Part shown: in pieces, positions 4,632-17,787 of the stretch
Layout of the letters: every line of letters begins with the position of its first letter
Numbering within the stretch: the stretch's first letter is position 1
NCBI RefSeq assembly: GCF_017161405.1
Contig: NZ_CP071051.1
Location: forward strand, 2,170,001-2,234,000
Origin: Leucobacter sp. CX169
GTDB lineage: Bacteria; Actinomycetota; Actinomycetes; Actinomycetales; Microbacteriaceae
Reading direction: 5' to 3'
DNA length: 64,000 bases
The notes under the pieces: model-generated
The model's input: the letters and a program-made list of their open reading frames with translations, nothing else
What the model was told of the DNA's origin: nothing
Databases searched by the model: none
Program-made: the position numbers and the translations under genes

Positions 4632-5228
4632 TCATGCTTCCGCCCAGGTTTCATCGAAGGTAGTGATCTCATCGGTCATGTCCTCAAGAAACCGAATGAT
4701 GATTTCTCGTTCCGATTCAGTCAGGCGGGCCGCAGCATGAAATCGCTTTGCATGTTGTCGGCCCACCGAGTTCATGGCGGCCTCGTGCGTTTCAGGAGTG
4801 ATCGAGATGGCGAGGGCACGGCGGTCTGTCGGGTGCGACGCTCTGGCAATGTGCCCAGCCCGTTCAAGGCGATCGAGCAGCTTGGTGGTTGATGCACTGG
4901 AAATCTTGAGATGCGCGGCGATCCGCCCCGGAGTCGCAATGTCGCCACTATTGTTCGAGACAATGAGGTAGTGCAATGCCCGCATGTCCGTCTGGTTGAG
5001 CTTCATGTACTTCTTGGACAGCACCGAGAGTTCCTGCTCGGCCTCTCGCAACCGGGCGAACGCACCCATCAGGGCACTGATCCCTCGCACCTGAGCGGGG
5101 TCCAACGCCGATCGATCGACCAGCGCGCCTCGCGGGTCACTGGAATCGATATCGAACATCTTCGACGAAACCGAATCGTGGTTTTCATCGACGTGTTCCA
5201 TGAAAAGAATTGTAGCTTCGGATAACAT
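4632..5228 (-). CDS. MarR-family regulator divergent from the carotenoid operon (CrtR-like)
   Basis: About 198 residues. The winged-helix region reads TDMRALHYLIVSNNSGDIATPGRIAAHLKISSASTTKLLDRLERAGHIARASHPTDRRALAISIT, with the DRR signature of the MarR wing in place. It is transcribed away from idi-crtE, the same layout as C. glutamicum crtR, a MarR repressor of the crt operon reported to respond to geranylgeranyl diphosphate. Control of this crt operon is inferred from position. The start is uncertain: ATG 5228 is used, ATG 5201 is equally possible, and neither has a strong ribosome site. Confidence 0.8.
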   Translation of the reverse strand: MLSEATILFMEHVDENHDSVSSKMFDIDSSDPRGALVDRSALDPAQVRGISALMGAFARLREAEQELSVLSKKYMKLNQTDMRALHYLIVSNNSGDIATPGRIAAHLKISSASTTKLLDRLERAGHIARASHPTDRRALAISITPETHEAAMNSVGRQHAKRFHAAARLTESEREIIIRFLEDMTDEITTFDETWAEA

Positions 5229-5290
5229 AAGCACCCAGTACTAAATCTTGAGAAGTTATTTTCATGCCAGGCTAGGCAAATTCTGGAAGC
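5229..5290. promoter_or_regulatory. Divergent promoter/operator region between the MarR gene and idi
   Basis: Only about 60 bp separate the two start regions, so both promoters and any MarR operator must lie here. A TTGAGA -35-like element is at about 5249 and TAGGCA at about 5273. The short palindrome CTTGAGAAG at 5248-5256 is a candidate half of an operator. Assignment is by position. Confidence 0.4.
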
Positions 5291-5854
5291 GTGAAGCGAG
5301 CGATGATGTTCGATGAAGAGCGTGTGGTTCTCTTAGGTGAAACCGGCCTGCCAATAGGCACCGCGTTGAAATCTGGCGTGCACACCGCCGACACTCCCTT
5401 GCATCTGGCATTTTCTTGTTATCTCTTCAACGAGCTCGGCGAAGTTCTCGTGACTCGCAGGGCGCTCACCAAGCGAACCTGGCCGGGGGTCTGGACCAAT
5501 AGTTTCTGTGGCCACCCCAGCCCTGATGAATCGCCAGAGATCGCTATCGTGCGTCGGGCGCAGGAAGAGCTTGGCGCCGAAATCTTTGGGATCGAACTTG
5601 TCCTTCCGAACTTTCGGTACCGCGCGACTGACGCAAGCGGCGTCGTCGAGAACGAGATCTGCCCGGTGTATGTTGCCCGGCTCGGCTCCTCTCTGACCCC
5701 CCACCCGGACGAGATTGCTGAGTGGGCATGGGTGTCTCCACTTCACCTTGCAGAGTCGCTTGAGCGCACACCCTTCACGTTCAGTCCCTGGATGGTGCGG
5801 CAACTCCCCGAACTCTTCCTGCACGAGAACGCCTTCCCCGGGGAACGCCGATGA
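5291..5854 (+). CDS. idi: Isopentenyl-diphosphate delta-isomerase, type I
   Basis: About 187 residues with a Nudix-type fold. It interconverts IPP and DMAPP to prime GGPP synthesis. The catalytic cysteine lies in TNSFCGHPSPDES and the catalytic glutamate in ENEICPVY, both as in E. coli Idi; RRAQEELGAE is the Nudix-like helix. It is the first gene of the crt operon, and its TGA overlaps the crtE ATG (ATGA at 5851-5854). GTG 5291 is used; ATG 5303 or 5306 would remove four or five residues without touching the domain. Function confident. Confidence 0.92.
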   Translation: MKRAMMFDEERVVLLGETGLPIGTALKSGVHTADTPLHLAFSCYLFNELGEVLVTRRALTKRTWPGVWTNSFCGHPSPDESPEIAIVRRAQEELGAEIFGIELVLPNFRYRATDASGVVENEICPVYVARLGSSLTPHPDEIAEWAWVSPLHLAESLERTPFTFSPWMVRQLPELFLHENAFPGERR

Positions 5855-7023
5855 CGGCGTCGACAGTCGTCCTCCACGATCGAAGCGACGTCAGGCGCGC
5901 GATCGAGCGCGAACTGAGTGAGATATTTCAGGCTCGCGCGAGCGCTGCCGCGCCATACGGAAACAGTTTTGTTCGACTCTGGACGCTCGCCGGACACAGC
6001 GTTCTCGGGGGCAAGCTCGTGCGCCCCCTGCTGCTCGTAGAAACGCACGAAGCTCTCCATCACCGAGATCCCGAGCGTCCCGGGCCTGCTGCACTCCCCG
6101 CCCCCACAGCTCAATACCCTCAGGATCGCGCGTGGCCGAACCAGGAGTCCGTCATCAGCATCGCCGCAGCGATCGAGTTGCTGCACTACTCATTCTTGCT
6201 GCACGATGATGTGATCGATGGGGACTTGACTCGACGCGGACGGCCCAACCTCATCGGGGCGCTCCTTGCCGAGTCCGGCACGGGTACGAGCGACCCTGTC
6301 GACGCAGAAAATATGTCTGTCGCGGGGCTGCACTGGGCACGCACCGGTGGCATCCTCATGGGGGATCTGCTTCTGGCAAGCACGCATCAGATCTTCGCCC
6401 GAGCGTGCGTCCCACAGGCGACACGTTTGAGATTGCTTGACCTCCTCGAATACACCATCACCGAGTCGGTGGTGGGCGAACAGCTCGATGTGGGTTTGGG
6501 CGGGGGCATCATTGAACCGGATCTCGGGACAGTGCTCACCATGTCCACGTATAAGACGGCAACGTACACATTCGAATTGCCCCTCCGGGCAGCGGCGATA
6601 CTCGCGGACACCAGCCCTCAAGTCGAGAGCACCCTCTCATCAGCAGGTAGACACTTGGGGCTCGCATTTCAGCTCCAGGATGATCTGTTGTCGACGTTCG
6701 GGGACCCGCTGCGACACGGCAAAGACCCGTTCTCCGATCTGAGGGAGGGTAAGCAAACCGCGTTGATTGCCTACGCGAGAATGACGAGCGAATGGCCGAG
6801 CATCGAACCGATGTTCGGGAGTGCTTCCCTCAGCAAGGAGGACGCGCTGCGTATCAAGGACCTGCTTCGGCAATGCGGCGCGGAACAGTTTGTGCAGGGC
6901 CTCGTCGACGAGCAACTCAGGTCTTTCTATGAGCTGCTGAGCAACCGCGCCTCAGCGATCCCCGCTGAGGTTCGGCGCGTATTGGTCGACCTCGCACGCC
7001 AGTTGGAGGGCAGACAGGCATGA
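5851..7023 (+). CDS. crtE: Geranylgeranyl diphosphate synthase
   Basis: 390 residues, an all-alpha trans-prenyltransferase. The first aspartate-rich motif is in LLHDDVIDGDLTRRGRPN (about residue 118) and the second in FQLQDDLLSTFGD (about residue 274); GGKLVRPLLLV is the conserved N-terminal substrate-binding block. It condenses IPP with allylic diphosphates to C20 GGPP for phytoene synthesis. It overlaps idi upstream and crtB downstream by 4 bp each, so translation is probably coupled. Corynebacterium has an mmpL-type gene between crtE and crtB; none is present here. Confidence 0.93.
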   Translation: MTASTVVLHDRSDVRRAIERELSEIFQARASAAAPYGNSFVRLWTLAGHSVLGGKLVRPLLLVETHEALHHRDPERPGPAALPAPTAQYPQDRAWPNQESVISIAAAIELLHYSFLLHDDVIDGDLTRRGRPNLIGALLAESGTGTSDPVDAENMSVAGLHWARTGGILMGDLLLASTHQIFARACVPQATRLRLLDLLEYTITESVVGEQLDVGLGGGIIEPDLGTVLTMSTYKTATYTFELPLRAAAILADTSPQVESTLSSAGRHLGLAFQLQDDLLSTFGDPLRHGKDPFSDLREGKQTALIAYARMTSEWPSIEPMFGSASLSKEDALRIKDLLRQCGAEQFVQGLVDEQLRSFYELLSNRASAIPAEVRRVLVDLARQLEGRQA

Positions 7024-7919
7024 ATGACAGCGTCTCGTTGGCCCTGTTCACGCGCACCGCTGAGCGTGCAGCAAATCAGGTGATCGAGTCCTATTCCACC
7101 TCGTTCGGGCTCGCGTGCCGCCTCTTGGGAGCACCGCATCGCCAGCACATTCGAAACATTTACGCGCTCGTTCGCGTCGCCGACGAGCTCGTTGACGGGA
7201 TGACGGTCGAGGCTGGACTGACTGCGGCGGAACAGTCTGAGACGCTCGAGAGCTTCATCGAGCGCACCCATCTCGCGTTGCGGCAGGGGTGCAGCAGCGA
7301 CCTCATCATTCATGCGTTCGCGCGAACTGCACGTCAGTGCGGCATCACCACCGAACTCACCACGCCCTTCTTTGACTCGATGCGCACTGACTTGATCAGA
7401 CAAGACAGTTCGTCACCCGGTCTCGCCCGTTTTGACGCATCGGCACACGCCGACTACATATACGGCTCGGCCGAGGTGGTGGGGCTGATGTGCCTCCGCG
7501 TCTTTCTGCGCGACCAGCACGTCAGCGAGCCTGAACGCCGTGCGCTTGAACATGGTGCCCGCCAGCTGGGTGCCGCTTTCCAGAACATCAACTTCCTCCG
7601 CGACCTCTCCGACGACACCGATCGCCTGGGGCGGAGCTACCTGGGTGTCAACGATCGTCTCAGCGACGAAGACCGGAGTTCTTGGGTGCAGACCATCCGA
7701 GAACAGCTGGCAGACGCGCGCGCGAGTATTCCCCTGTTGCCGCCTGACGCCCGAGCGGCAGTGCGCAGCGCACTTGAGCTGTTCACCGCGCTCACCGATC
7801 GAATTGAAGCCGTGCAAATCGAAGACCTGTATCGCCGACGTGTCCGAGTACCCAATCCGGTGAAAGCCGGGCTCGCCGCCCGGGCCCTGTTCACGAGTTG
7901 GCGGGAGCCGCGACGATGA
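7020..7919 (+). CDS. crtB: Phytoene synthase
   Basis: 299 residues, head-to-head squalene/phytoene synthase family. SYSTSFGLACRLL opens the fold; the aspartate-rich substrate-Mg motifs are RVADELVDG (about residue 58) and NFLRDLSDDTDRLGRSYL (about residue 190). It joins two GGPP molecules to 15-cis-phytoene, probably at the membrane surface. The ATG overlaps the crtE stop (ATGA, 7020-7023) and its own stop overlaps the crtI start. Length and motifs are normal for the family. Confidence 0.95.
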   Translation: MNDSVSLALFTRTAERAANQVIESYSTSFGLACRLLGAPHRQHIRNIYALVRVADELVDGMTVEAGLTAAEQSETLESFIERTHLALRQGCSSDLIIHAFARTARQCGITTELTTPFFDSMRTDLIRQDSSSPGLARFDASAHADYIYGSAEVVGLMCLRVFLRDQHVSEPERRALEHGARQLGAAFQNINFLRDLSDDTDRLGRSYLGVNDRLSDEDRSSWVQTIREQLADARASIPLLPPDARAAVRSALELFTALTDRIEAVQIEDLYRRRVRVPNPVKAGLAARALFTSWREPRR

Positions 7920-9517
7920 CCCGCACTGTGGTGATCGGTGGCGGTATCGCCGGCCTCGCGACTGCCGGGCTGCTCGCTCGGGAAGGCCACGAGGTCGTCG
8001 TACTTGAACGACTCGAGCGCTTTGGCGGGCGCGTCGGCACTGTCGAACGAAACGGGTTCCGCTTTGACACGGGGCCGTCGTGGTACCTCATGCCGGGTGT
8101 CTTCGACCGTTTCTTCTCGCTCATGGGAACGAGCACCAGCGAGCAGCTCGATCTTCACGATCTCGACCCTGCCTATCGGGTGTTTCAAGAACCTGGCCCG
8201 GACGGAGGCGCGCCCCTCCCCGTCACTATTCCTCGTGGCCGGGAACGTGTGATTGCCGCCTTCGAGTCGCTCGAAAGCGGAAGTGGGCACACGCTCACTA
8301 CCTATCTCGATTCCGCGCGCACCACCACTGCGATGGCCGAGCGGTTCTTCCTCTACAACCCGTTCACTCGGCTACGTTCCCTGCTGAACCGTCAAGTTCT
8401 CGGCTCGCTCCCCAAGCTTGCACAGTTGCTCCTCACTCCACTTGATACCTATGTGGCGCGACGATTCCAGAACCCGGTGTTGCGCCAGATCCTGGGCTAT
8501 CCTGCAGTCTTTCTGGGGACCGCGCCCTCCGCTGCGCCCGCGATGTATCACCTGATGAGCACCCTCGACCTCGACGAGGGCGTTCAGTACCCGATGGGCG
8601 GATTCTCCGAGCTGGTGGAGCGAATCGAGGCACTCGCGCGCGATGCCGGCGCGACACTGATCAGCAGTGCTGAGGTCACCGCCATCACTACCGATCGGGA
8701 CGGCGAATCCCGCTCCAGTCGCCGTCCGTCAGTGACAGGAGTCCGCTGGCGTGACGCACATGGCGAGGTCCATTTCACCGCAGCCGACCTGGTTGTGTCG
8801 GGGGCTGATTTGCATCACACCGAGACAACTCTGCTGGAAACAGCAAATCAGAGTTACCCCGAACAGTGGTGGACGAAGCGAACGAGCGGGCCGGGGGCAG
8901 TGATCGTCCTCCTCGGCGTCCGCGGCGAGCTTCCTGAGCTCCCGCACCACTCTCTGTTCTTCACCCAGGACTGGCAGCACAACTTCGACGCCATCTTTGG
9001 GGGCCATCCGTCAATTCCGGATCCTGCCTCAATCTATGTGTGCAAGCCCAGTGCCACCGACCCCAGCGTCGCTCCGCCCGGACACGAGAACCTGTTCGTC
9101 CTCGTTCCGATCCCCGCCGATCCGGACATCGGCGCGGGAGGCGCAGACGGTGACGGCGACCCCCGGATCGAGCAGGCAGCAGATGCGGCCATCGACCAGA
9201 TCGCACAGTGGTCAGGTGTCACCGACCTTCAGGATCGAATCGTGTTGCGACACACTCTCGGGCCCGCTGACTTTGCGCGCGACTACCATTCGTGGCAGGG
9301 CGGCATGCTGGGGCCCGCGCATATCTTGCGACAGAGCGCGATGTTCCGCCCGCAGAACGCATCACCGCGGGTGGAGGGCTTGTACTACGCAGGCGGCACC
9401 ACCTCTCCCGGTGTCGGAGTACCGATGTGCCTGATTAGCGCAGAATTGGTGCTGAAGCATGTGCGCGGCGATCACAGCGCCGGGCCGACTCACGCGGGAC
9501 CGGAGGCCAAACGATAA
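7916..9517 (+). CDS. crtI: Phytoene desaturase (lycopene-forming)
   Basis: 533 residues from ATG 7916, chosen because it overlaps the crtB stop in an ATGA. The N-terminal dinucleotide-binding site is VVIGGGIAGLATAGLLA followed by the acidic VVVLERLERFGGRVGT; the C-terminal signature is GLYYAGGTTSPGVGVPMC, typical of bacterial CrtI. It performs the FAD-dependent multi-step desaturation of phytoene; lycopene is the expected product because a lycopene elongase and cyclase genes follow. The next ATG overlaps its stop (TAATG at 9515-9519). Confidence 0.95.
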   Translation: MTRTVVIGGGIAGLATAGLLAREGHEVVVLERLERFGGRVGTVERNGFRFDTGPSWYLMPGVFDRFFSLMGTSTSEQLDLHDLDPAYRVFQEPGPDGGAPLPVTIPRGRERVIAAFESLESGSGHTLTTYLDSARTTTAMAERFFLYNPFTRLRSLLNRQVLGSLPKLAQLLLTPLDTYVARRFQNPVLRQILGYPAVFLGTAPSAAPAMYHLMSTLDLDEGVQYPMGGFSELVERIEALARDAGATLISSAEVTAITTDRDGESRSSRRPSVTGVRWRDAHGEVHFTAADLVVSGADLHHTETTLLETANQSYPEQWWTKRTSGPGAVIVLLGVRGELPELPHHSLFFTQDWQHNFDAIFGGHPSIPDPASIYVCKPSATDPSVAPPGHENLFVLVPIPADPDIGAGGADGDGDPRIEQAADAAIDQIAQWSGVTDLQDRIVLRHTLGPADFARDYHSWQGGMLGPAHILRQSAMFRPQNASPRVEGLYYAGGTTSPGVGVPMCLISAELVLKHVRGDHSAGPTHAGPEAKR

Positions 9518-9849
9518 TGGGATACATCTATCTCCTATCCCTCCTCGGGGGGATCGCCTGCATGCTCCTGCTCGACTTTCGCTACCGCCTGTTCTTCTGG
9601 CACGACGCCCGGTCGGCAACAATTGTGACGCTCGTGGGTCTCGTGGTGATGCTCGCATGGGACCTCGCGGGAATCGGTTTGGGGATCTTTCTTCGCGGCG
9701 AGGGAGAGATCGCGACCGGGCTGCTCATCGCGCCAGAGCTTCCCATTGAAGAACCCTTCTTCCTCCTCTTCCTCGTGCTCTGCACCATGATTATCTACAC
9801 CGGACTTCGACGGATTCATGAGCGCCGAGCAGAGAGGCACGCGTCGTGA
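9517..9849 (+). CDS. crtYe: C50 carotenoid cyclase subunit (lycopene cyclase domain, CrtYe-like)
   Basis: 110 residues with three hydrophobic helices. MGYIYLLSLLGGIACMLLLD and FRYRLFFWHDAR are the conserved start of the heterodimeric lycopene cyclase domain, and LLIAPELPIEEPFFLLFL carries the PxE(E/D)xxF motif. In C. glutamicum and Micrococcus two such small subunits act together to cyclise the elongated C50 chain. The partner is the N-terminal part of the next gene, translated from an overlapping GTG. Whether beta, gamma or epsilon rings form cannot be read from sequence alone. Confidence 0.88.
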   Translation: MGYIYLLSLLGGIACMLLLDFRYRLFFWHDARSATIVTLVGLVVMLAWDLAGIGLGIFLRGEGEIATGLLIAPELPIEEPFFLLFLVLCTMIIYTGLRRIHERRAERHAS

Positions 9850-11060
9850 CCTATCTCTGGCTCGCGCTGCTCTTCGTCGTCGCGGCAGGGATCTCGGGAA
9901 TACTGCTCGTTCGTGTCCGTGGGACGCGGGAGTCAACTCGCACGCACTGGGCCATCGCAGGGGTGACGTTTCTTGTGCTGGCGGTCCTCACCGCGGTGTT
10001 CGACTCGGTAATGATTGGCATGGAGCTGTTCGACTTCGGCTCAGCGCACATCCTGGGAGTGCGCATCGGGCTCGCGCCTATTGAAGATTTTTCTTACCCG
10101 CTGGTCTGTGTGCTCTTGCTTCCCGCCCTGTGGCTCGCGCTCACGCGGGTGCGTGAAGCTCGGGGGCGTGAAGCGCGCGTTCCCACCCAGCGCCAAGGGC
10201 TGATATCCCAGGCCCTGCTGGCCTCGAGACCGGTGAGTTGGATCAACACGGCGTTCCCGTTCGCGGCGGCCTATCTCCTCACCACGCGTGAGATCGACTG
10301 GGTGCTCATCGTCGGCACGGTCTACTTCCTTATCCCATACAACCTCGCGATGTATGGCATCAATGATGTGTTTGACTACGCATCGGATCTGCAGAACCCG
10401 CGCAAGGGAGGTCTCGAAGGCGCGCTCCTCGCACCTCGGCTGCATCGTCCCTTGCTCTGGCTCGTTGCAGCGACGAATCTGCCGTTCCTGATTGTGTTGG
10501 CCGCCGCCGGCGGACCAGTCGTCTGGGTCAGTCTCGCCTTCAGCACCTTCACGGTGATCGCCTATTCTGCGCCAGGGCTCCGCTTCAAGGAACGCCCCAT
10601 CATTGATTCGATCACCTCGAGCACCCACTTCGTCAACCCCGCCATCGTCGGGCTGGCCCTTGCCGGCGTGGAGGTCACGCCGGGGCTCGTGATCGTCCTA
10701 GCGGCGTTCTTCCTGTGGGGTATGGCCGCGCACGCCTTCGGTGCGGTGCAAGATATCGTTCCGGATCGGGACGCCGGCATCGCGTCCATCGCCACGGTCT
10801 TCGGGGCACGGCGCACCGTCCGGCTGTCCGTTGCCCTCTGGTCCGTGGCGGGGCTCGCGATGCTCGCGACTGCCTGGCCGGGCCCCCTCGTATCGCTGGT
10901 GGCCATCCCGTACCTCCTGAACAGCCTGCCGTGGTGGAACGTCACGGAGAGCACCGCTGCGGACACCAATCGTTCCTGGCGGCGCTTCATTTGGTTGAAC
11001 TACGGTTCCGGGTTCTTGGTGACCCTCGCGCTGATCCTGCTGTGGATGCAAGGGCCCTAA
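9846..11060 (+). CDS. crtYf-crtEb: Fusion of C50 cyclase subunit (CrtYf-like) and lycopene elongase (CrtEb-like, UbiA family)
   Basis: 404 residues in one uninterrupted frame. Residues 1-105 are a second cyclase subunit (LTAVFDSVMIGMELFDFG, LGVRIGLAPIEDFSYPLV). Residues about 125-404 are a UbiA-type prenyltransferase with first aspartate motif INDVFDYASD and second motif QDIVPDRDAGIAS, matching lycopene elongases that add two C5 units. In C. glutamicum these are separate genes (crtYf, crtEb); I recall a fused form, LbtBC, from Dietzia. The GTG start overlaps the crtYe stop. It is the last crt operon gene and the following operon converges on it. Confidence 0.88.
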   Translation: MTYLWLALLFVVAAGISGILLVRVRGTRESTRTHWAIAGVTFLVLAVLTAVFDSVMIGMELFDFGSAHILGVRIGLAPIEDFSYPLVCVLLLPALWLALTRVREARGREARVPTQRQGLISQALLASRPVSWINTAFPFAAAYLLTTREIDWVLIVGTVYFLIPYNLAMYGINDVFDYASDLQNPRKGGLEGALLAPRLHRPLLWLVAATNLPFLIVLAAAGGPVVWVSLAFSTFTVIAYSAPGLRFKERPIIDSITSSTHFVNPAIVGLALAGVEVTPGLVIVLAAFFLWGMAAHAFGAVQDIVPDRDAGIASIATVFGARRTVRLSVALWSVAGLAMLATAWPGPLVSLVAIPYLLNSLPWWNVTESTAADTNRSWRRFIWLNYGSGFLVTLALILLWMQGP

Positions 11061-11133: not shown

Positions 11134-12606
11134 TCAGTCGTGTTGCGGATCAGCCTGCATCGCGGTGGAGGTGATCCGGTTCACCATGCCGCTGAAAATG
11201 ATCCCGTGAAATGGCAGGATCGAAAACCAGTACAGTCGCCCAGCGAGTCCTCGGGGAAAGAAGATCGCGCGTTGTCGGTACAGTGAGCCATTGCCGTCGG
11301 GAAGCACTTCCATCTGGAGCCAGGCGAGACCGGGGAGCCGCATCTCGGCACGGAGCAGCAGTAGGCGTCCGCGTTCCAGACGCTCCACCCTCCAAAAGTC
11401 GAGCACTTCGCCAGTCTGCAATCGTTGCGGGTGGCGGCGGCCACGGCGAAGTCCCACCCCTCCGACCAATTTGTCCGCCCACCCCCGAAGCGCCCATGCC
11501 AACGGGAAGGAATACCAGCCGTTTGCTCCGCCGATCCCTTCGACGACGTTCCAGAGCTTCTCGGGAGTCGCGTCCGTCCTGCGCTCGCGGGAATCGGTGA
11601 AGACCGTGCGTCCGGCCCATTCCGGATCGCTGGGCAGCGGGTCACTGGGCGCATCGCCCACTGATGAGTTCTGCCAAGTGGTCTCGACGGCACCGGCATC
11701 CAGCTTCGCGAGCGCAAGTCGGACCGCTTGGCGGTAGCCGGTCAGGCCACCCTCGGGCGGCGGAATGAACTCGTCAATGTCGTGCTCGGTCATGACGCAG
11801 TCGTGTTGCAACGAGGCGATGATCGGAATGGCCAGTCTGCGCGGAATCGGAGTGACCAGGTTGACCCACTGCGAGGCGAGCCAGGGGGTCAGTACCGGTA
11901 GTGCTGCGATCGGCCGCTGACGCAGTCCCGCTTCAAGCGCGTACCCGTTCATCATCTGGCCGTAGCGCAGCACATCCGGTCCCCCGATATCGAACGCACG
12001 GCTGACTTCAGGAGGAAGCTCTGCGGCCGCAACGAGGTAGTACAAGACGTCGCGTACCGCGATCGGTTGGATGAAGTTGCGCACCCACTTCGGCGCCGGC
12101 ATGTATGGCAACACGTCAGTCAGGTGCCGGATCATCTCGAATGATGTCGACCCGGAGCCGATCACCACACCGGCCTGCAGCGCAACCGTGGGGACGCCAG
12201 AGGCAAGCAGGATCTCTCCCACCTGTTTGCGCGAGGCCAGGTGTTGTGACAGACGATGCCCTCGGGGGTAGAGCCCCCCGAGATAGACAATTCGCCCCAC
12301 CCCAAGCTGTGCCGCAGCCGTCGCGACGTTCCGAGCAGCACGGCCCTCAGCCACTGCAAAGTCGCCCTTGGTGCCCATTGAATGGACGAGATAGTAAACC
12401 ACGTCCTTGCCCGCGCAGGCTTCAGCCACCGTGTCTGGGTCGAGCAGGTCGCCTGCGACGATCGTCACTCGCTCTGCCCACGGCACGTCCAAGAGTTTCT
12501 GAGGCGATCGCACCAGTACCGTGACCTTGTACCCGGCGTCCAGCAGCCGAGGGACGAGTCGTCCACCGATGTACCCGGTTGCCCCAGTGACCAGAACACT
12601 CTTCAC
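11134..12606 (-). CDS. NAD(P)-binding SDR-type protein with C-terminal DUF2867 domain
   Basis: 490 residues. The N-terminus is an atypical short-chain dehydrogenase (VLVTGATGYIGGRLVPRLL, VVYYLVHSMG, GRIVYLGGLYP); from about residue 330 a DUF2867-type domain follows (WNVVEGIGGANGWYSFPLAW, GEVLDFWRVERLERGRLLLL, YRQRAIFFPRGLAGRLYWF). This pairing is common in actinobacteria, with no well-defined substrate. It is the third gene of a minus-strand operon after two glycosyltransferases, its ATG overlapping the upstream stop by 4 bp (12603-12606). A role in finishing or transporting a glycosylated lipid or carotenoid is an inference from context. Confidence 0.8.
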   Translation of the reverse strand: MKSVLVTGATGYIGGRLVPRLLDAGYKVTVLVRSPQKLLDVPWAERVTIVAGDLLDPDTVAEACAGKDVVYYLVHSMGTKGDFAVAEGRAARNVATAAAQLGVGRIVYLGGLYPRGHRLSQHLASRKQVGEILLASGVPTVALQAGVVIGSGSTSFEMIRHLTDVLPYMPAPKWVRNFIQPIAVRDVLYYLVAAAELPPEVSRAFDIGGPDVLRYGQMMNGYALEAGLRQRPIAALPVLTPWLASQWVNLVTPIPRRLAIPIIASLQHDCVMTEHDIDEFIPPPEGGLTGYRQAVRLALAKLDAGAVETTWQNSSVGDAPSDPLPSDPEWAGRTVFTDSRERRTDATPEKLWNVVEGIGGANGWYSFPLAWALRGWADKLVGGVGLRRGRRHPQRLQTGEVLDFWRVERLERGRLLLLRAEMRLPGLAWLQMEVLPDGNGSLYRQRAIFFPRGLAGRLYWFSILPFHGIIFSGMVNRITSTAMQADPQHD

Positions 12607-13937
12607 TGCGTTGTCCCTTCTGCGATGGGGTTCAGAGGCCGAACCCGTCCGGCGAGGGCGTGATGGCCCTCGCGCGCACGCAAGGTCGCTCCCAGGTCAT
12701 GCAGGGCACGGCGGGCGTCTTCGGGAAGGTTCAGCATGGAATCAATGGCGATTTTGATCTCGGCGACTGTGGCTTCATTGGGCGCCAATGCGGCCCCGAA
12801 CCCGATGCGTTCGAGGGCTTCTGCACCGGCAAACTGATCTGTAGAAAAAGGCAAGACGACGAGAGGTACGCCGAAAGTGAGGGCCTCCGTCACGCTGTTA
12901 TTGCCGCCATGCGTCACCCCCAACGCCGCTGCCCCCAGCAGCGTGACTTGCGGGAGGAACTCCCCCACCAACCAATGATCGGGGACATCTCCGAGATCCG
13001 CGATGTCTGCGGATCCATACGCAATAGCGGCACGAACGTTCGCCACCCGCAGCGCCTCGGCGACCTTACCGAGGACATCGCCGCGAACCGACAAAAAGCT
13101 GCCAAAACTGACGTAGACAAAGGGCTCGTCAGTGGCGGACAGCCATTCTTCGATGTGAGGTTCTGGCGTCTCTGCACGCACGGACGCACCAATGAACTGG
13201 TGCGCCGGAAGGTGCGCCAAACGATCTGGCGGCATGAGTTCCGCCGGGTAGTTGAAGACGAGGGGATCTCCGTGCTCGGCAAACGCGTTCGGAGAGGGCG
13301 CGCGGTTCGGCGCCAATTCTGCCAAGGCAGTGTTCCATTCGGAGGTAAACGACTGGCTCACTTGTTCACAGAGTTCACGCAATTCGGTGACTTGCTGCTC
13401 GCTGGGTGAGAACGCGGAGGGCCAAGCAGGGGGCAGCCCGTACACCTCGCCGGCGGCTGTCATCGGCAATGCGGTCGGGTGGCCCAGCACGACATCGACA
13501 TAATCAATCCCTGCGGCTACGAGCGCGAGTCGCGCGCTATAGGCCAGATGATCGACCATAATCGTCGTCGGATTCAGGTCTTCGACGATCGCTTGGACTG
13601 CCCGGGCTGTGGCGACCGGCTCCCACATGAGGTCGTTCAAACGGGCCTCCGCCTGGAACGACAGCGTCTGGATCATGCCCTCGCGGGTTGCAGCGAAGAA
13701 GCCTCGAAGCGCATCATCTTCGCCGTCTGGTTGCTCCTCGGCGCGAATGATCCCCGGGTTTGAGCCCCGGCTCAGCTGGAGACTGACATGTTCGTAACCG
13801 AAGGAGCGGACAATCGAAGCGGTGGCGGGTCCGGTCGCGACAACCACCCGCTCACCAGCCTCCAACCAGCTGCTTCCCAGCGCCGCGAGGGGGTAGAGAT
13901 GTGAGGCATAGTCGGGGCTAATAATCAGTAGCGTCAT
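12603..13937 (-). CDS. UGT/MGT-type glycosyltransferase (possible carotenoid glucosyltransferase)
   Basis: 444 residues of GT-B fold. The C-terminal donor-binding signature is VTHGGNNSVTEALTFGVPLV followed by PFSTDQFAGAEALERIGFG; the N-terminus MTLLIISPDYASHLYPLAALG matches acceptor domains of macrolide and zeaxanthin glucosyltransferases (CrtX family). FVYVSFGSFLSVRG is the strand before the donor site. It overlaps both neighbours by 4 bp. Next to a C50 carotenoid operon, glucosylation of the terminal hydroxyls is the simplest guess but is not proven by sequence. Confidence 0.82.
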   Translation of the reverse strand: MTLLIISPDYASHLYPLAALGSSWLEAGERVVVATGPATASIVRSFGYEHVSLQLSRGSNPGIIRAEEQPDGEDDALRGFFAATREGMIQTLSFQAEARLNDLMWEPVATARAVQAIVEDLNPTTIMVDHLAYSARLALVAAGIDYVDVVLGHPTALPMTAAGEVYGLPPAWPSAFSPSEQQVTELRELCEQVSQSFTSEWNTALAELAPNRAPSPNAFAEHGDPLVFNYPAELMPPDRLAHLPAHQFIGASVRAETPEPHIEEWLSATDEPFVYVSFGSFLSVRGDVLGKVAEALRVANVRAAIAYGSADIADLGDVPDHWLVGEFLPQVTLLGAAALGVTHGGNNSVTEALTFGVPLVVLPFSTDQFAGAEALERIGFGAALAPNEATVAEIKIAIDSMLNLPEDARRALHDLGATLRAREGHHALAGRVRPLNPIAEGTTQ

Positions 13938-16144
13938 GCGGTGCGCACCAGTTCTCTTCGTTGTGCTACGTCATCGCGGTGGACGTCGGAATAGATTCGC
14001 GTCAGGGCCTCGGCCATCGCCTCAACCGTGAAGCGTTCTTGCACGACGCCCCGAGAATAGGCAGCTCGTTCAGCGGTGGTTTCCGCGGCTGCGCAGTCCA
14101 AGGCGTCCTGCATTGCGCCGCGCAGTAACTCCAGATCCCAGGTCGTGGTCAAGAAGCCGGTTCGGCGCTGTTCCACATAGGTCGCTGGGCCACCGCCGTC
14201 AGGGGCCACCAGCAACAGCCCCGAGGCCATGGCTTCGAGAAGCGCCAGACCAAACTCCTCCTTCAGACTTCCGCACACGTAGACGCCACCCGGTGCGATG
14301 AATCCAGGCAATCCGATCCGGGTGGCCGCGATCCAGCGAGAAACGGTGGTGTTCGGGCGATGCCCCGAAAGCACAAGACCCGCTGCCATCCGATTCTCGG
14401 GATCTACCGTTTGGTCGATGCGAGTCAGTTGCTCGCGCTCATCGGCTGAGGGGTTTTCCAGATTTCCTCCGACGAGCAGGAGGTTCGCACGAAGGCTCAG
14501 ATCTGATCCGGCCCAGGCGGCAACGATCGAGGCCATGCCCTTCACCCGGTGGAATCTGCCGACACTGATGAGTACCGGTAGGCTCCGGCGTTCCCTCGGA
14601 AGCTCCTCGAGCAGTGCGCACAGTTCCGCGAGGGGAGCGCTCGGGGGGCCGCCATCGGCACAGGCTTCTGCTTCGCGCACTGCCTGGTCGATCACCGCCA
14701 GATCAATGCCTTCCGGAACCGTCGTGTGCCGTCCTGGTTCACTCCCCATGTCGATGCCCATGAGGTCTTGCATGTCATGTTGCAGGTTTGGTCGCGGGAA
14801 GAAGACATTGTGGGCTGAGTTGGCCGCCAACCGCTGGACCAGTCGGGCCCGGAACCAGAAGTGCTCTGCTTCGTCAATCGTGCCGAAATTTTGGCGGTGC
14901 AGCTTCCCTGACATGTCCAGGGAATTAATGAGACCATGCGGGTCTGGTGCCGCCGTGAAGATTACCGGTATGTCGAGCTCGCGCGCGACATCGAATGCCG
15001 CCAGGCTCCCCACGTCTGCCATCCGAAGATGAATCAGGTCCACGGGTCCTGCCGCCTTCAGGATCCGCGCAATGCCCCTGCGCGCTGCCACTCGCAGCGG
15101 CCAAGCATTCGTCGCCTGCATCGGCTCCTGTAGCAACGGAATGCGGCCGTACTGGTGGCCAGAACGTTCGTCTTCGATCGCGGACAAACTCTGTACGGCA
15201 TCGTCCACTCCACCTCTCGACAGTGTGATGACCCGCTTGATGGGCAGCTGCCGAGACGAGTCAGTACTCGAACTCCCAACACCTCTTTCTGAGCTACTGA
15301 CGAGCGCATCACCCAGTCGGACCAACAACGTGGCGATCCCACCAGTATCTCCGCTGCCCGCATGACGGAGCTCTGGGTCAATATCTGCGTGGAGAAATAG
15401 TTGGGCGACCGTAACTCCCGCCTCAGGAAGCGGCGTCGAACTTCCATTACGTGCTTCGTCGTGATTCGCCAAGTCAGTCAGGGCAAGTCGCGCCACCTCT
15501 CCGAGCGGCGCTTCTGCTTCAGCCAGCTGCGTCAGGCGTCGTTGGACTTCCTCGCTGCCCGCGCGTTCGCCTAACGCAGCGACAGCAGCCATCCTGACGG
15601 CGATCTCTTCACCTGTATCGCTGGCGATACGCAGCAGCGGTGCAGTCGCAATCGAGTGGTGCACCAGACCCAGAGTCTCGGCCAGTCGGTATCGGCTGGG
15701 CGCGTGCGTGAGGCTGAGTAGCGCACTTTCCAGACCGATGGCGACGAGTTCGGGAGAGGACCTCGCCCAGCCCTCGAGGGTGCGCTGGGCCAGCATCCCG
15801 ACAAAACCGCCCGCGATCACCAAACCGATGAGTCGCCCGATCGGCCCTGGGCGGGGGGCACGCGCATGCAGCGCCCAGGCCGCATGCTCTCGCACAAACC
15901 CGCGTTCGCTGGACAACAAGTCAGCGAGCGCTTCGTCGGACTCTTCGTCAGCGATGTTCGCGAGCGCGTGTATCGCCGCGATCGCAGAGATCTGGTCTGA
16001 AGATTCGATCGCACTCAGCAGGATCAGAACATTGCGTATTCCCCCGTCGCGGCTGGCCTCGACGGCGAGCTCGTCTGCCAGGCGGAGGACTTCGACGAGT
16101 CGATCAGCGCTCTGCACCGCTTCGAGACAGTTACGAACTCGCAT
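13934..16144 (-). CDS. HEAT-repeat / GT4-type glycosyltransferase fusion
   Basis: 736 residues. Residues about 20-260 are alpha-helical HEAT-like repeats (IAAIHALANIADEESDEALADLL, FVREHAAWALHARAP, IAVRMAAVAALGERAG). From about 290 a GT-B glycosyltransferase of the RfaB/GT4 type follows: ISVGRFHRVKGMASIVAAWAG, LVLSGHRPNTT, and the EEFGLALLEAMASGLL signature with the E-x7-E pair, then PDGGGPATYVEQRRTGFL. It is first in the minus-strand operon with the UGT and SDR-DUF2867 genes. HEAT repeats suggest a protein partner or scaffolding role. I know no characterised protein with this architecture in a carotenoid locus. Confidence 0.8.
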   Translation of the reverse strand: MRVRNCLEAVQSADRLVEVLRLADELAVEASRDGGIRNVLILLSAIESSDQISAIAAIHALANIADEESDEALADLLSSERGFVREHAAWALHARAPRPGPIGRLIGLVIAGGFVGMLAQRTLEGWARSSPELVAIGLESALLSLTHAPSRYRLAETLGLVHHSIATAPLLRIASDTGEEIAVRMAAVAALGERAGSEEVQRRLTQLAEAEAPLGEVARLALTDLANHDEARNGSSTPLPEAGVTVAQLFLHADIDPELRHAGSGDTGGIATLLVRLGDALVSSSERGVGSSSTDSSRQLPIKRVITLSRGGVDDAVQSLSAIEDERSGHQYGRIPLLQEPMQATNAWPLRVAARRGIARILKAAGPVDLIHLRMADVGSLAAFDVARELDIPVIFTAAPDPHGLINSLDMSGKLHRQNFGTIDEAEHFWFRARLVQRLAANSAHNVFFPRPNLQHDMQDLMGIDMGSEPGRHTTVPEGIDLAVIDQAVREAEACADGGPPSAPLAELCALLEELPRERRSLPVLISVGRFHRVKGMASIVAAWAGSDLSLRANLLLVGGNLENPSADEREQLTRIDQTVDPENRMAAGLVLSGHRPNTTVSRWIAATRIGLPGFIAPGGVYVCGSLKEEFGLALLEAMASGLLLVAPDGGGPATYVEQRRTGFLTTTWDLELLRGAMQDALDCAAAETTAERAAYSRGVVQERFTVEAMAEALTRIYSDVHRDDVAQRRELVRTA

Positions 16145-16353
16145 TCATCTCCCAATTCAAGCGTCATGAATCTTCAGCCTGGCGGCGAAAATCCCCCTCA
16201 AGTCACTGCTGTGTCCGAGTTTCCAGTCGTTCAGAGCAGTCCCTGCCTCTCGAAGACCGTGATTGATTGCCTAGCTATTGTCTCGTTTATCTAGGTACAT
16301 TGGCAACAAGGCCCTCATCTCGTCCGTCACCCGCCACAGCGAGGAACATAGTT

Positions 16354-17787
16354 GTGAATTTCGCTCAACGTAACACCGCAACTCGTCGACCAGAGGACGA
16401 GCGTCTTCCCGCGGGACGCACACTCGCCTACGGAATGCAGCACGTGCTCGCCATGTACGGCGGCATCATCGCACCTCCGTTGATCGTTGGCGGTGCAGCC
16501 GGGCTCAGCGCGCAAGAAATTGGCTTCTTGATCGCGAGCTGCCTGTTTGTCGGCGGACTCGCAACCATTCTGCAGACCGTCGGCATCCCGTTTTTCGGAT
16601 CCCAGTTGCCGTTGGTACAGGGCACGTCTTTCGCAGCAGTAGCCACCATGGTCGCGATCATTGATAGTGGCGGAGGCATCCAAGGCGTGTTTGGCGCCGT
16701 GCTTGCGGCTTCCACTATCGGCTTCCTTGTTGCCCCGTTCTTTGCCCGAATCGTTCGGTTCTTCCCTCCGGTTGTGACCGGAGTGGTGATTACCATGATT
16801 GGCATCTCACTGATTCCTGTCGCCGCAAATTGGGCAATGGGGGGCAACTCAACCGCTGACAGCTACGGAAGCATGGGCAACATTGGGCTTGCCGGTGCGA
16901 CACTCTTGATTGCACTTCTGCTCTCCAAGCTTGGAAATGCTGCGATTGCCCGGTTAGCCATCTTGCTCGCGCTGTTGCTGGGCACCGGCCTGGCGTGGCT
17001 GCTCGGCATGGCTGATTTTTCGACGGTCGGCGAGGGCGCATTTTTTGCCTTCCCGCAGCCGTTCGCCTTTGGCTGGCCAGTCTTTGAGGTGGGAGCTATC
17101 ATCTCGATGACGGTCGTCGTCTTGGTGATTCTGACGGAGACTACCGCCGACATTCTTGCTCTCGGTCAGATCGTGGGAACGAAGGTCGACAAGCGCCGCA
17201 TCGCCGACGGGCTCCGGGCAGATATGGCATCTAGCATCCTGGCCCCAATCTTGAATACCTTCACCCAGAGCGCGTTTGCCCAGAATGTCGGTCTGGTGGC
17301 GATCACCGGCGTCAAGAGCCGTTTCGTCGTTGCCGCCGGCGGCGGGATCCTGGTCGCTCTTGGCCTTTTGCCAGTGCTGGGCCGAGTGGTCGCCACCGTT
17401 CCCACTGCTGTTCTGGGCGGCGCAGGAATCGTCCTCTTCGGCACGGTCGCGGCCTCAGGTATTCGCACCCTCAGCAAGGTCAGTTATGAGGGGAACTTTA
17501 ACCTCATCATCGTCTCGACCTCAATCGCATTTGGCTGCCTGCCCATCGTGAAATCAGATTTTTACGATGCCTTCCCAACTTGGTTCGGAACCATCTTCCA
17601 CTCCGGAATTAGTTCGGCTGCGATCATGGCGGTCTTGCTCAACCTGCTGTTCAACGAGTTGAAAATCGGCAAGAAGAACCACCACACGCCTGCAGCTGTC
17701 GGCGCTGCTCCACGAAGCGGCGCAGACGCTCCCGTTACACATCAGCCCATCACGCCTCCCCCTCCAGGACCTGGCATGCCGGAATAG
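16354..17787 (+). CDS. Nucleobase:cation symporter-2 family permease (uracil/xanthine type)
   Basis: 477 residues with about 12-14 hydrophobic segments. The N-terminus GMQHVLAMYGGIIAPPLIVG and the signature TFTQSAFAQNVGLVAITGVK SR (the Q-N-x-G-x(3)-x-T-x-V-x-SR pattern) are diagnostic of NCS2 transporters, which import uracil, xanthine or uric acid. I prefer GTG 16354 because GAGGAA ends seven bases upstream; a longer frame to 16267 would run through the promoter. CCTAG and CTAGG arms flank an AT-rich stretch at about 16269-16294 upstream and could be an operator. No purine catabolic genes are adjacent. Confidence 0.88.
   Translation: MNFAQRNTATRRPEDERLPAGRTLAYGMQHVLAMYGGIIAPPLIVGGAAGLSAQEIGFLIASCLFVGGLATILQTVGIPFFGSQLPLVQGTSFAAVATMVAIIDSGGGIQGVFGAVLAASTIGFLVAPFFARIVRFFPPVVTGVVITMIGISLIPVAANWAMGGNSTADSYGSMGNIGLAGATLLIALLLSKLGNAAIARLAILLALLLGTGLAWLLGMADFSTVGEGAFFAFPQPFAFGWPVFEVGAIISMTVVVLVILTETTADILALGQIVGTKVDKRRIADGLRADMASSILAPILNTFTQSAFAQNVGLVAITGVKSRFVVAAGGGILVALGLLPVLGRVVATVPTAVLGGAGIVLFGTVAASGIRTLSKVSYEGNFNLIIVSTSIAFGCLPIVKSDFYDAFPTWFGTIFHSGISSAAIMAVLLNLLFNELKIGKKNHHTPAAVGAAPRSGADAPVTHQPITPPPPGPGMPE

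Follow-up and report, generated by a model that had tools for sequence, protein, structure and literature searches.

Three overlapping genes beside a C50 carotenoid cluster

We examined three genes at positions 11134-16144 of a 64,000-nucleotide stretch of the Leucobacter sp. CX169 genome (contig NZ_CP071051.1, positions 2,170,001 to 2,234,000; the whole stretch is called the window here, and coordinates are counted from its first letter). A first-pass annotation had read them as one operon of a HEAT-repeat/GT4 fusion, a UGT and an SDR-DUF2867 protein, each overlapping the next by 4 bp and all facing crtEb, whose products could make or place glycosylated C50 carotenoids or another glycolipid. 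An open reading frame (ORF) check of the window bore out this layout: there are three complete ORFs on the minus strand, designated A (16144-13934; 736 residues, ATG start), B (13937-12603; 444 residues) and C (12606-11134; 490 residues, GTG start), with a 4-bp overlap at A/B and again at B/C. The run converges on a fused crtYf-crtEb gene, the last of a C50 carotenoid cluster. A, B and C are conserved genes and not chance ORFs, because they have orthologues in 41, 41 and 129, respectively, of 199 Microbacteriaceae genomes, a sample drawn evenly from the family that we searched with A, B, C and CrtYf-Eb.

That gene A fuses HEAT repeats to a glycosyltransferase (GT) was upheld by Pfam, in which it scored above the cut-offs for both HEAT_2 (42.2 bits, cut-off 27.7) and Glycos_transf_1 (52.8 bits, cut-off 26.4). 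An AlphaFold model of A built from 31 sequences (mean predicted local distance difference test score, pLDDT, 89.7) was helical over residues 2-232, with 14 helices, and had a GT-B fold from about residue 242. On the combined basis of the HEAT_2 score, the helical repeat and invariant residues (R85, H87 and W126 across 31 A sequences), we assigned residues 1-232 (15449-16144) to a HEAT domain. Residues 241-735 (13940-15424) form a GT4 catalytic domain, as judged from the GT-B fold, the Glycos_transf_1 match and the E-x7-E motif that marks GT4 enzymes; here R530, K535, E629 and E637 are invariant across the same 31 sequences.

The closest fold matches of A were the sucrose-phosphate synthases 2r60 (Z 25.0, root-mean-square deviation 8.4, 425 aligned) and 6kih (Z 23.7, root-mean-square deviation 3.2, 397 aligned); matches to the full model cover mainly residues 240-736, so they speak to relatives of the GT domain and not of the HEAT domain. 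The fold search also returned several receptor structures that match over the GT domain only, which we take to be crystallisation fusions. With the sucrose-phosphate synthase, sucrose synthase and MshA group of GT4 (2r60, 6kih, 3s28, 3c4q), A shares the GT-B fold over residues ~243-727 and keeps the conserved R530, K535, E629 and E637, but identity is 19-21%, and A adds the N-terminal HEAT domain and a constant GT1 partner. This nearness of fold, which extends to TreT, and the cold-associated names of several hosts would suit a gene pair that works in the style of sucrose-phosphate synthase, its product a compatible solute or a soluble sugar. We consider that improbable, as A scored 61.3 bits against the sucrose-phosphate synthase model TIGR02472 (NCBIfam; curated cut-off 576) and is not a member of that family, and as a solute pathway would leave unexplained both the GT1 partner and the pyruvyl transferase found near many A-B loci (described below).

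Gene B is a GT1/UGT-type glycosyltransferase, in keeping with its first identification: Pfam matched it to UDPGT (52.6 bits, cut-off 19.5) and also to EryCIII-like_C, and its sequence relatives in the PDB include CalG1, the oleandomycin glycosyltransferase and YjiC. Invariant positions in 30 B sequences (H13, H343, G345-E351, D367 and Q368) take in the N-terminal histidine and the HGG...DQ donor motif of the family, to which we presumptively give the catalytic and donor-binding roles. B thus shares its two domains and its donor motif with the macrolide/CalG/YjiC-type enzymes; against the MGT model, however, it reached only 92 bits (cut-off 260), and unlike those enzymes B (at least 57% identity) always adjoins a HEAT-GT4 gene where it is found. 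From their sequences, both A and B look catalytically competent.

A and B form a conserved two-gene cassette

Orthologues of A (~42-72% identity) were found in 41 of the 199 family genomes, in two of which (G014 and G089) the match fell in two pieces; the remaining matches listed in the family were short GT4 matches with E-values of 5e-8 or weaker and were not counted. B, at 57% identity or more, was present in exactly the same 41 genomes and stood beside A, while a 42nd genome (G141) gave a B match of 27% only. With B starts set by alignment, the 4-bp A/B overlap was kept in 28 of the 29 fetched loci in which both ORFs were clustered (the B of L050 was not), L032 having a 30-bp gap instead. 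We then scanned a genome collection with the A alignment and took the best 80 of 353 relatives (L071-L150, the named loci), whose hosts include Homoserinimonas, Arthrobacter, Paeniglutamicibacter, Cellulomonas, Microbacterium, Agromyces, Cryobacterium, Frigoribacterium and Herbiconiux. All 80 held B by tblastn and 79 held it by ORF, the contig of L139 ending soon after A. Across the order, A occurred in 17 of 297 genomes. In a set of 12 loci, B was missing from one (L159). A and B are therefore a conserved two-gene glycosyltransferase cassette, and to this extent the annotation, which had joined them, was right.

In a quick tree of 95 A proteins, the A of Homoserinimonas sp. OAct 916 is the sister of the window's A, and the two fall with nine Micrococcaceae proteins in a supported group of 11. 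Two loci labelled as Planococcus sp. (L127) and Acidobacteria bacterium (L093) had A proteins that grouped with Microbacteriaceae, and their labels or bins may be wrong.

A more distant pair lies on the Psychrobacter sp. plasmid pA53P4 (L163, NZ_MN657118.1, 7960-11290), where a GT4 and a GT1 gene stand near a GT25 gene. These are homologues of A (26% identity over 489 columns) and B (28% over 423 columns, 184 bits) in the same order and overlapping, on a plasmid of a gammaproteobacterial host, which suggests from sequence comparison that the two-GT module reaches Gammaproteobacteria. One scan of viral contigs (viral_contigs) found no relative. An entry described as 'UNVERIFIED Bacteriophage' from human faeces (L165, MT835579.1, 19692-23281) carries A-B and also encodes a C5 DNA methylase and a protein with a Z1 domain; we rejected a phage link, as this sole match in the phage collection is marked UNVERIFIED and seems likelier to be a bacterial contig.

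Gene C is a separate, carotenoid-associated gene

The identity proposed for the third gene also stood, C scoring 79.4 bits against NAD_binding_10 and 144.4 against DUF2867, as expected of an SDR-DUF2867 protein. Its predicted structure (pLDDT 63.9) was too poor for use. The claim that A, B and C are one unit did not survive. A-B occur in 41 of the family genomes and C in 129 (at E 1e-20, a few matches being partial), 90 of which lack A, and among the genomes searched C adjoins A-B only in the window: of the 40 other family genomes with A, not one had C next to A-B, and in all 80 named loci C was missing from the flanks of A-B, which extended up to 8 kb. The idea that the three proteins form one pathway, with C supplying a nucleoside diphosphate (NDP)-sugar, draws on the SDR-like nature of C, on its 4-bp overlap with B in the window and on its presence in 39 of the 41 A-positive genomes (p 9e-7, kinship ignored). 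Its absence from the other A-B neighbourhoods, its presence in 90 of 158 genomes without A, the two genomes with A-B and no C (G065, G131) and its placement near crt genes elsewhere leave that idea largely refuted and, to our mind, very improbable.

In the family sample, 121 genomes had both C and crtEb, 8 had C only, 39 had crtEb only and 31 had neither (Fisher p 3e-10, kinship ignored). Among the matches listed, C lay within 10 kb of crtEb in at least 14 genomes of 8 genera (the window's own, G000, and G001, G006, G048, G054, G063, G085, G088, G099, G118, G147, G151, G173 and G177), and in most of the 121 genomes with both genes the two were far apart or on different contigs. We fetched ten C loci, five of them chosen as crt-near and confirmed so: in L061 and L062 C follows directly on the 3' side of crtEb, in the same orientation, and in L063, L068 and L070 it lies 5' of crtE. 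No crt genes were near C in the remaining five (L064-L067, L069). C is thus a separate gene, associated with carotenoid genes in the family and not part of the A-B cassette, and it is C, not A-B, that accounts elsewhere for the crt linkage that had been expected of all three. In the family genome nearest to the window in A (G063), C stands at the 5' end of the crt operon (L068) and A-B lie on another contig; the simplest history would be that A-B came to adjoin C in the window's lineage after its split from G063.

A 2017 paper on crtR includes 'epi, putative NDP sugar epimerase' among the genes that it draws with crt clusters (PMC5401885). That this epi is C is a guess; C scored 22.6 bits against the NCBIfam epimerase model galE (cut-off 262) and 50.7 against HpnA (cut-off 368), though other epimerases may exist.

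The cassette and the carotenoid genes

The fusion that the three genes face (9846-11060, plus strand) encodes a C50 cyclase subunit joined to a lycopene elongase (Pfam UbiA; NCBIfam PRK13105, 448 bits, and CarR_dom, 40.8 bits). Upstream of it on the same strand (5291-9849) are ORFs for the rest of the cluster, crtE, crtB, crtI and crtYe, with Pfam or NCBIfam support, and a putative idi that we presume from its sequence to be so named. A gene at 4632-5234 diverges from the cluster; from its sequence and place we take it to be a MarR-like regulator, in the arrangement described for CrtR.

This adjoining, complete C50 cluster is what invites the view that A-B glycosylate its product, B adding a glucose to the carotenoid and A a second sugar. 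The GT1 class of B would fit, as the glycosyltransferase of a Pantoea plasmid crt cluster, presumably CrtX, is likewise a GT1. Identity between the two is 24% (61.6 bits), though, and B is closer to the Psychrobacter GT1 (28%, 184 bits). This comparison was made with the Pantoea enzyme and no actinobacterial CrtX sequence; crtX of actinobacteria is named in passages of PMC5401885 and PMC6669644. A CrtX would be recognised by linkage to crt genes and by occurrence only with carotenoid genes, and B shows neither. All 80 named A-B loci lacked crtE, crtB, crtI and crtEb over flanks of up to 8 kb (less where the contig was shorter), and among the family-sample matches listed A-B stand next to crtEb in the window only, so that the trio is not conserved beside crt genes in other Microbacteriaceae among the genomes searched.

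Co-occurrence gave a mixed picture. In the family, crtEb was present in all 41 A-positive genomes and in 119 of 158 A-negative ones (Fisher p 8e-5, kinship ignored), and a search of 15 A-positive genomes from Micrococcaceae and Cellulomonas found crtI in every one (15 of 16 such loci, the metagenome bin L075 being left out); against this, 119 of the 160 genomes with crtEb have no A-B. Order-wide the association was absent: at a threshold of 1e-60, crtI was found in 143 of the 297 genomes, that is, in 9 of 17 A-positive genomes versus 134 of 280 others (p 0.80). A re-check at a looser threshold covered 11 of the 17 A-positive order genomes in full and left out 146 A-negative genomes without crtI. 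It returned close crtI and crtB matches in G354, G431 and G500, and it showed that three of the eight A-positive genomes in which crtI had been missed at 1e-60 (G275, G316 and G441) have a divergent crtI (33-34%) and a crtB-like gene, so that we count only five as free of carotenoid genes. These five (G230, G317, G331, G357 and G452, 99-100% complete) had no crtB at an E-value of 0.001 and no crtI match stronger than 8e-12, and in all of them B, at 57-60% identity, stands beside A. G331 and G357 share a genus with G431 and G500, which carry crtB and crtI. In two loci from the five (L151, L158), A aligns from residue 3 or 39.

Carotenoid glycosylation does not hold up as the general job of A-B, because none of the 80 named loci has crt genes within up to 8 kb and five carriers count as free of carotenoid genes, and the order-wide co-occurrence agrees. 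This is largely the pattern, occurrence mostly away from crt loci or in non-pigmented species, that the annotation had named as speaking against its own proposal. A role of A-B on the C50 carotenoid of the neighbouring operon itself also seems to us a poor prospect. A looser tie to carotenoids within Microbacteriaceae may exist, because crtEb accompanies A in 41 of 41 genomes and, among the matches listed, A-B lie ~30-65 kb from crtEb in G042, G071, G077, G134, G140 and G192; distances in the same range separate A-B from crtI in the order genomes G242 and G354. These figures count against the carotenoid-independent function that we propose below.

Purine genes and other neighbours of A-B

A xanthine permease gene (16267-17787, plus strand; NCBIfam pbuX, 491 bits) diverges from A upstream of it in the window, and we mention it as context. 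Xanthine dehydrogenase genes occur near A-B in L155, L156, L157, L161 and L162, all of one family, and in L156 they immediately precede A, in the same orientation; adenylosuccinate lyase occurs near A-B in L051, L054-L056 and L059. The permease was found at 0 of 122 other A-B loci and the dehydrogenase and lyase at 5 of 122 each, and a purine link was rejected because the matches are clade-specific synteny.

Clustering ORFs around the 80 named loci identified two recurrent partners, D and E (other than for D, E, C and the crt genes, the partner search reached up to 8 kb). D, downstream of A-B and convergent with them, is a GT-A-like protein of ~230 residues with weak matches, below cut-off, to Glyco_tranf_2_2 and Glyco_transf_7C and with invariant D67, D69 and GWG.ED. 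E, upstream and divergent, is a homologue of the polysaccharide pyruvyl transferases and a member of PF04230 (92.6 bits for the E of L034, cut-off 25.3). A profile search of the PDB at E 0.01 gave no sequence relative of either. By tblastn, D was found in 44 of the 80 named loci, E in 44 and both in 41. In the family sample, D occurs in 18 of 199 genomes and E (best match at least 47%) in those 18 as well, every one positive for A-B (Fisher p 1e-14 for D against A); E also had matches of 29-34% in G040, G084 and G147, all without A-B. On the A tree the presence of D/E, scored within the fetched locus, requires 6 changes versus 32 for shuffled labels. D and E appear to share a pathway with A-B, because they are present even in genomes where one or the other does not adjoin A-B (G037, G051, G121, G167 and G175), in several of which the distance is large (for example G051, G121 and G175). 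Every other neighbour family was found in at most 14 of the 80 loci, apart from ORFs antisense to D and E that we took as shadows.

A proposed function for A-B

A-B joins known enzyme folds in an uncharacterised way, and we found no paper in the open-licence literature on the cassette, on a HEAT-repeat glycosyltransferase in Microbacteriaceae or on DUF2867 with carotenoids. Starting from the gene pairing, co-occurrence, domains and conserved motifs observed above, we give a probability of about 0.5 to A-B being an uncharacterised, carotenoid-independent cassette responsible for a short oligosaccharide built on an acceptor other than the carotenoid. B, the GT1, would start the chain by moving a sugar from an NDP-sugar onto a lipid or lipophilic aglycone, and A, the sucrose-phosphate synthase-like GT4, would extend the chain, its HEAT domain perhaps serving as the dock for the acceptor, for B or for a membrane complex. 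In some species, the window's not among them, D (with its invariant DxD and GWGxED) may add a further sugar, probably galactose, on which E, in the same subset, would place a pyruvyl ketal. C, a separate SDR gene, would have gained its overlap with the end of B in the window's lineage. The oligosaccharide is most likely carried on lipid or protein and pyruvylated in some species. Of the two products first suggested, then, the C50 carotenoid glycoside is not supported, and the product may be another glycolipid.

Several further points weigh against this proposal. D and E are absent at E 1e-10 from the window's own genome, although E, the PF04230 partner, is present in 18 of 199. Across 30 A-B loci no transporter gene keeps a constant position next to the pair; members of one ABC ATPase family are near 8 of the 30, in varied positions. 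The order of the sugars, their donors, the acceptor, the enzymes' activity and the role of the HEAT domain are all points that we infer. Finally, the HEAT domain may not be essential, because Pfam gave no HEAT match for the A-like protein of Psychrobacter and because A aligns only from residue 106, 225 or 243 in the carotenoid-gene-free loci L154-L156, where the HEAT region is shorter or divergent.

The HEAT domain also bears on the nature of the acceptor. The TPR repeats of O-GlcNAc transferase recognise protein and, by analogy, A-B might be a cytosolic protein glycosylation pair in which the HEAT domain of A recognises a protein and B primes or extends its glycan. A helical repeat domain fused to a glycosyltransferase would make a docking layout; R85, H87 and W126 are invariant, and the stretches REHA.W.L and GGF.G.LAE.TLEAW are kept even in L155, L161 and L162, whose N-termini are shortened. 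GT1 enzymes, however, mostly act on small lipophilic acceptors; besides D and E, and shadow ORFs aside, no neighbour family occurs in more than 14 of the 80 loci; and the Psychrobacter homologue gave no HEAT hit. We judge a dedicated protein-modifying pair unlikely, if slightly less so than the solute or carotenoid roles. A further reading, tentative and with the odds against it, is that A-B, with D and E as options, constitute an undescribed glycoconjugate assembly in which the GT4, paired with a GT1, is given its protein or lipid acceptor by a HEAT-repeat scaffold, the product bearing a pyruvylated end in some species.

Taken as a whole, the apparent operon splits into two: a crt-associated SDR-DUF2867 gene and a portable two-enzyme glycosylation cassette. 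Adjacency to crt genes alone is no ground for calling glycosyltransferase genes carotenoid glycosyltransferases. The co-occurrence of D and E with A-B predicts a pyruvylated glycoconjugate in about half of the carriers (18 of 41 family genomes). Should the HEAT-scaffold proposal be true, bacteria would have in this cassette their own counterpart of repeat-guided protein glycosylation, present in several actinobacterial families and distantly related to a gene pair on a plasmid of Gammaproteobacteria.

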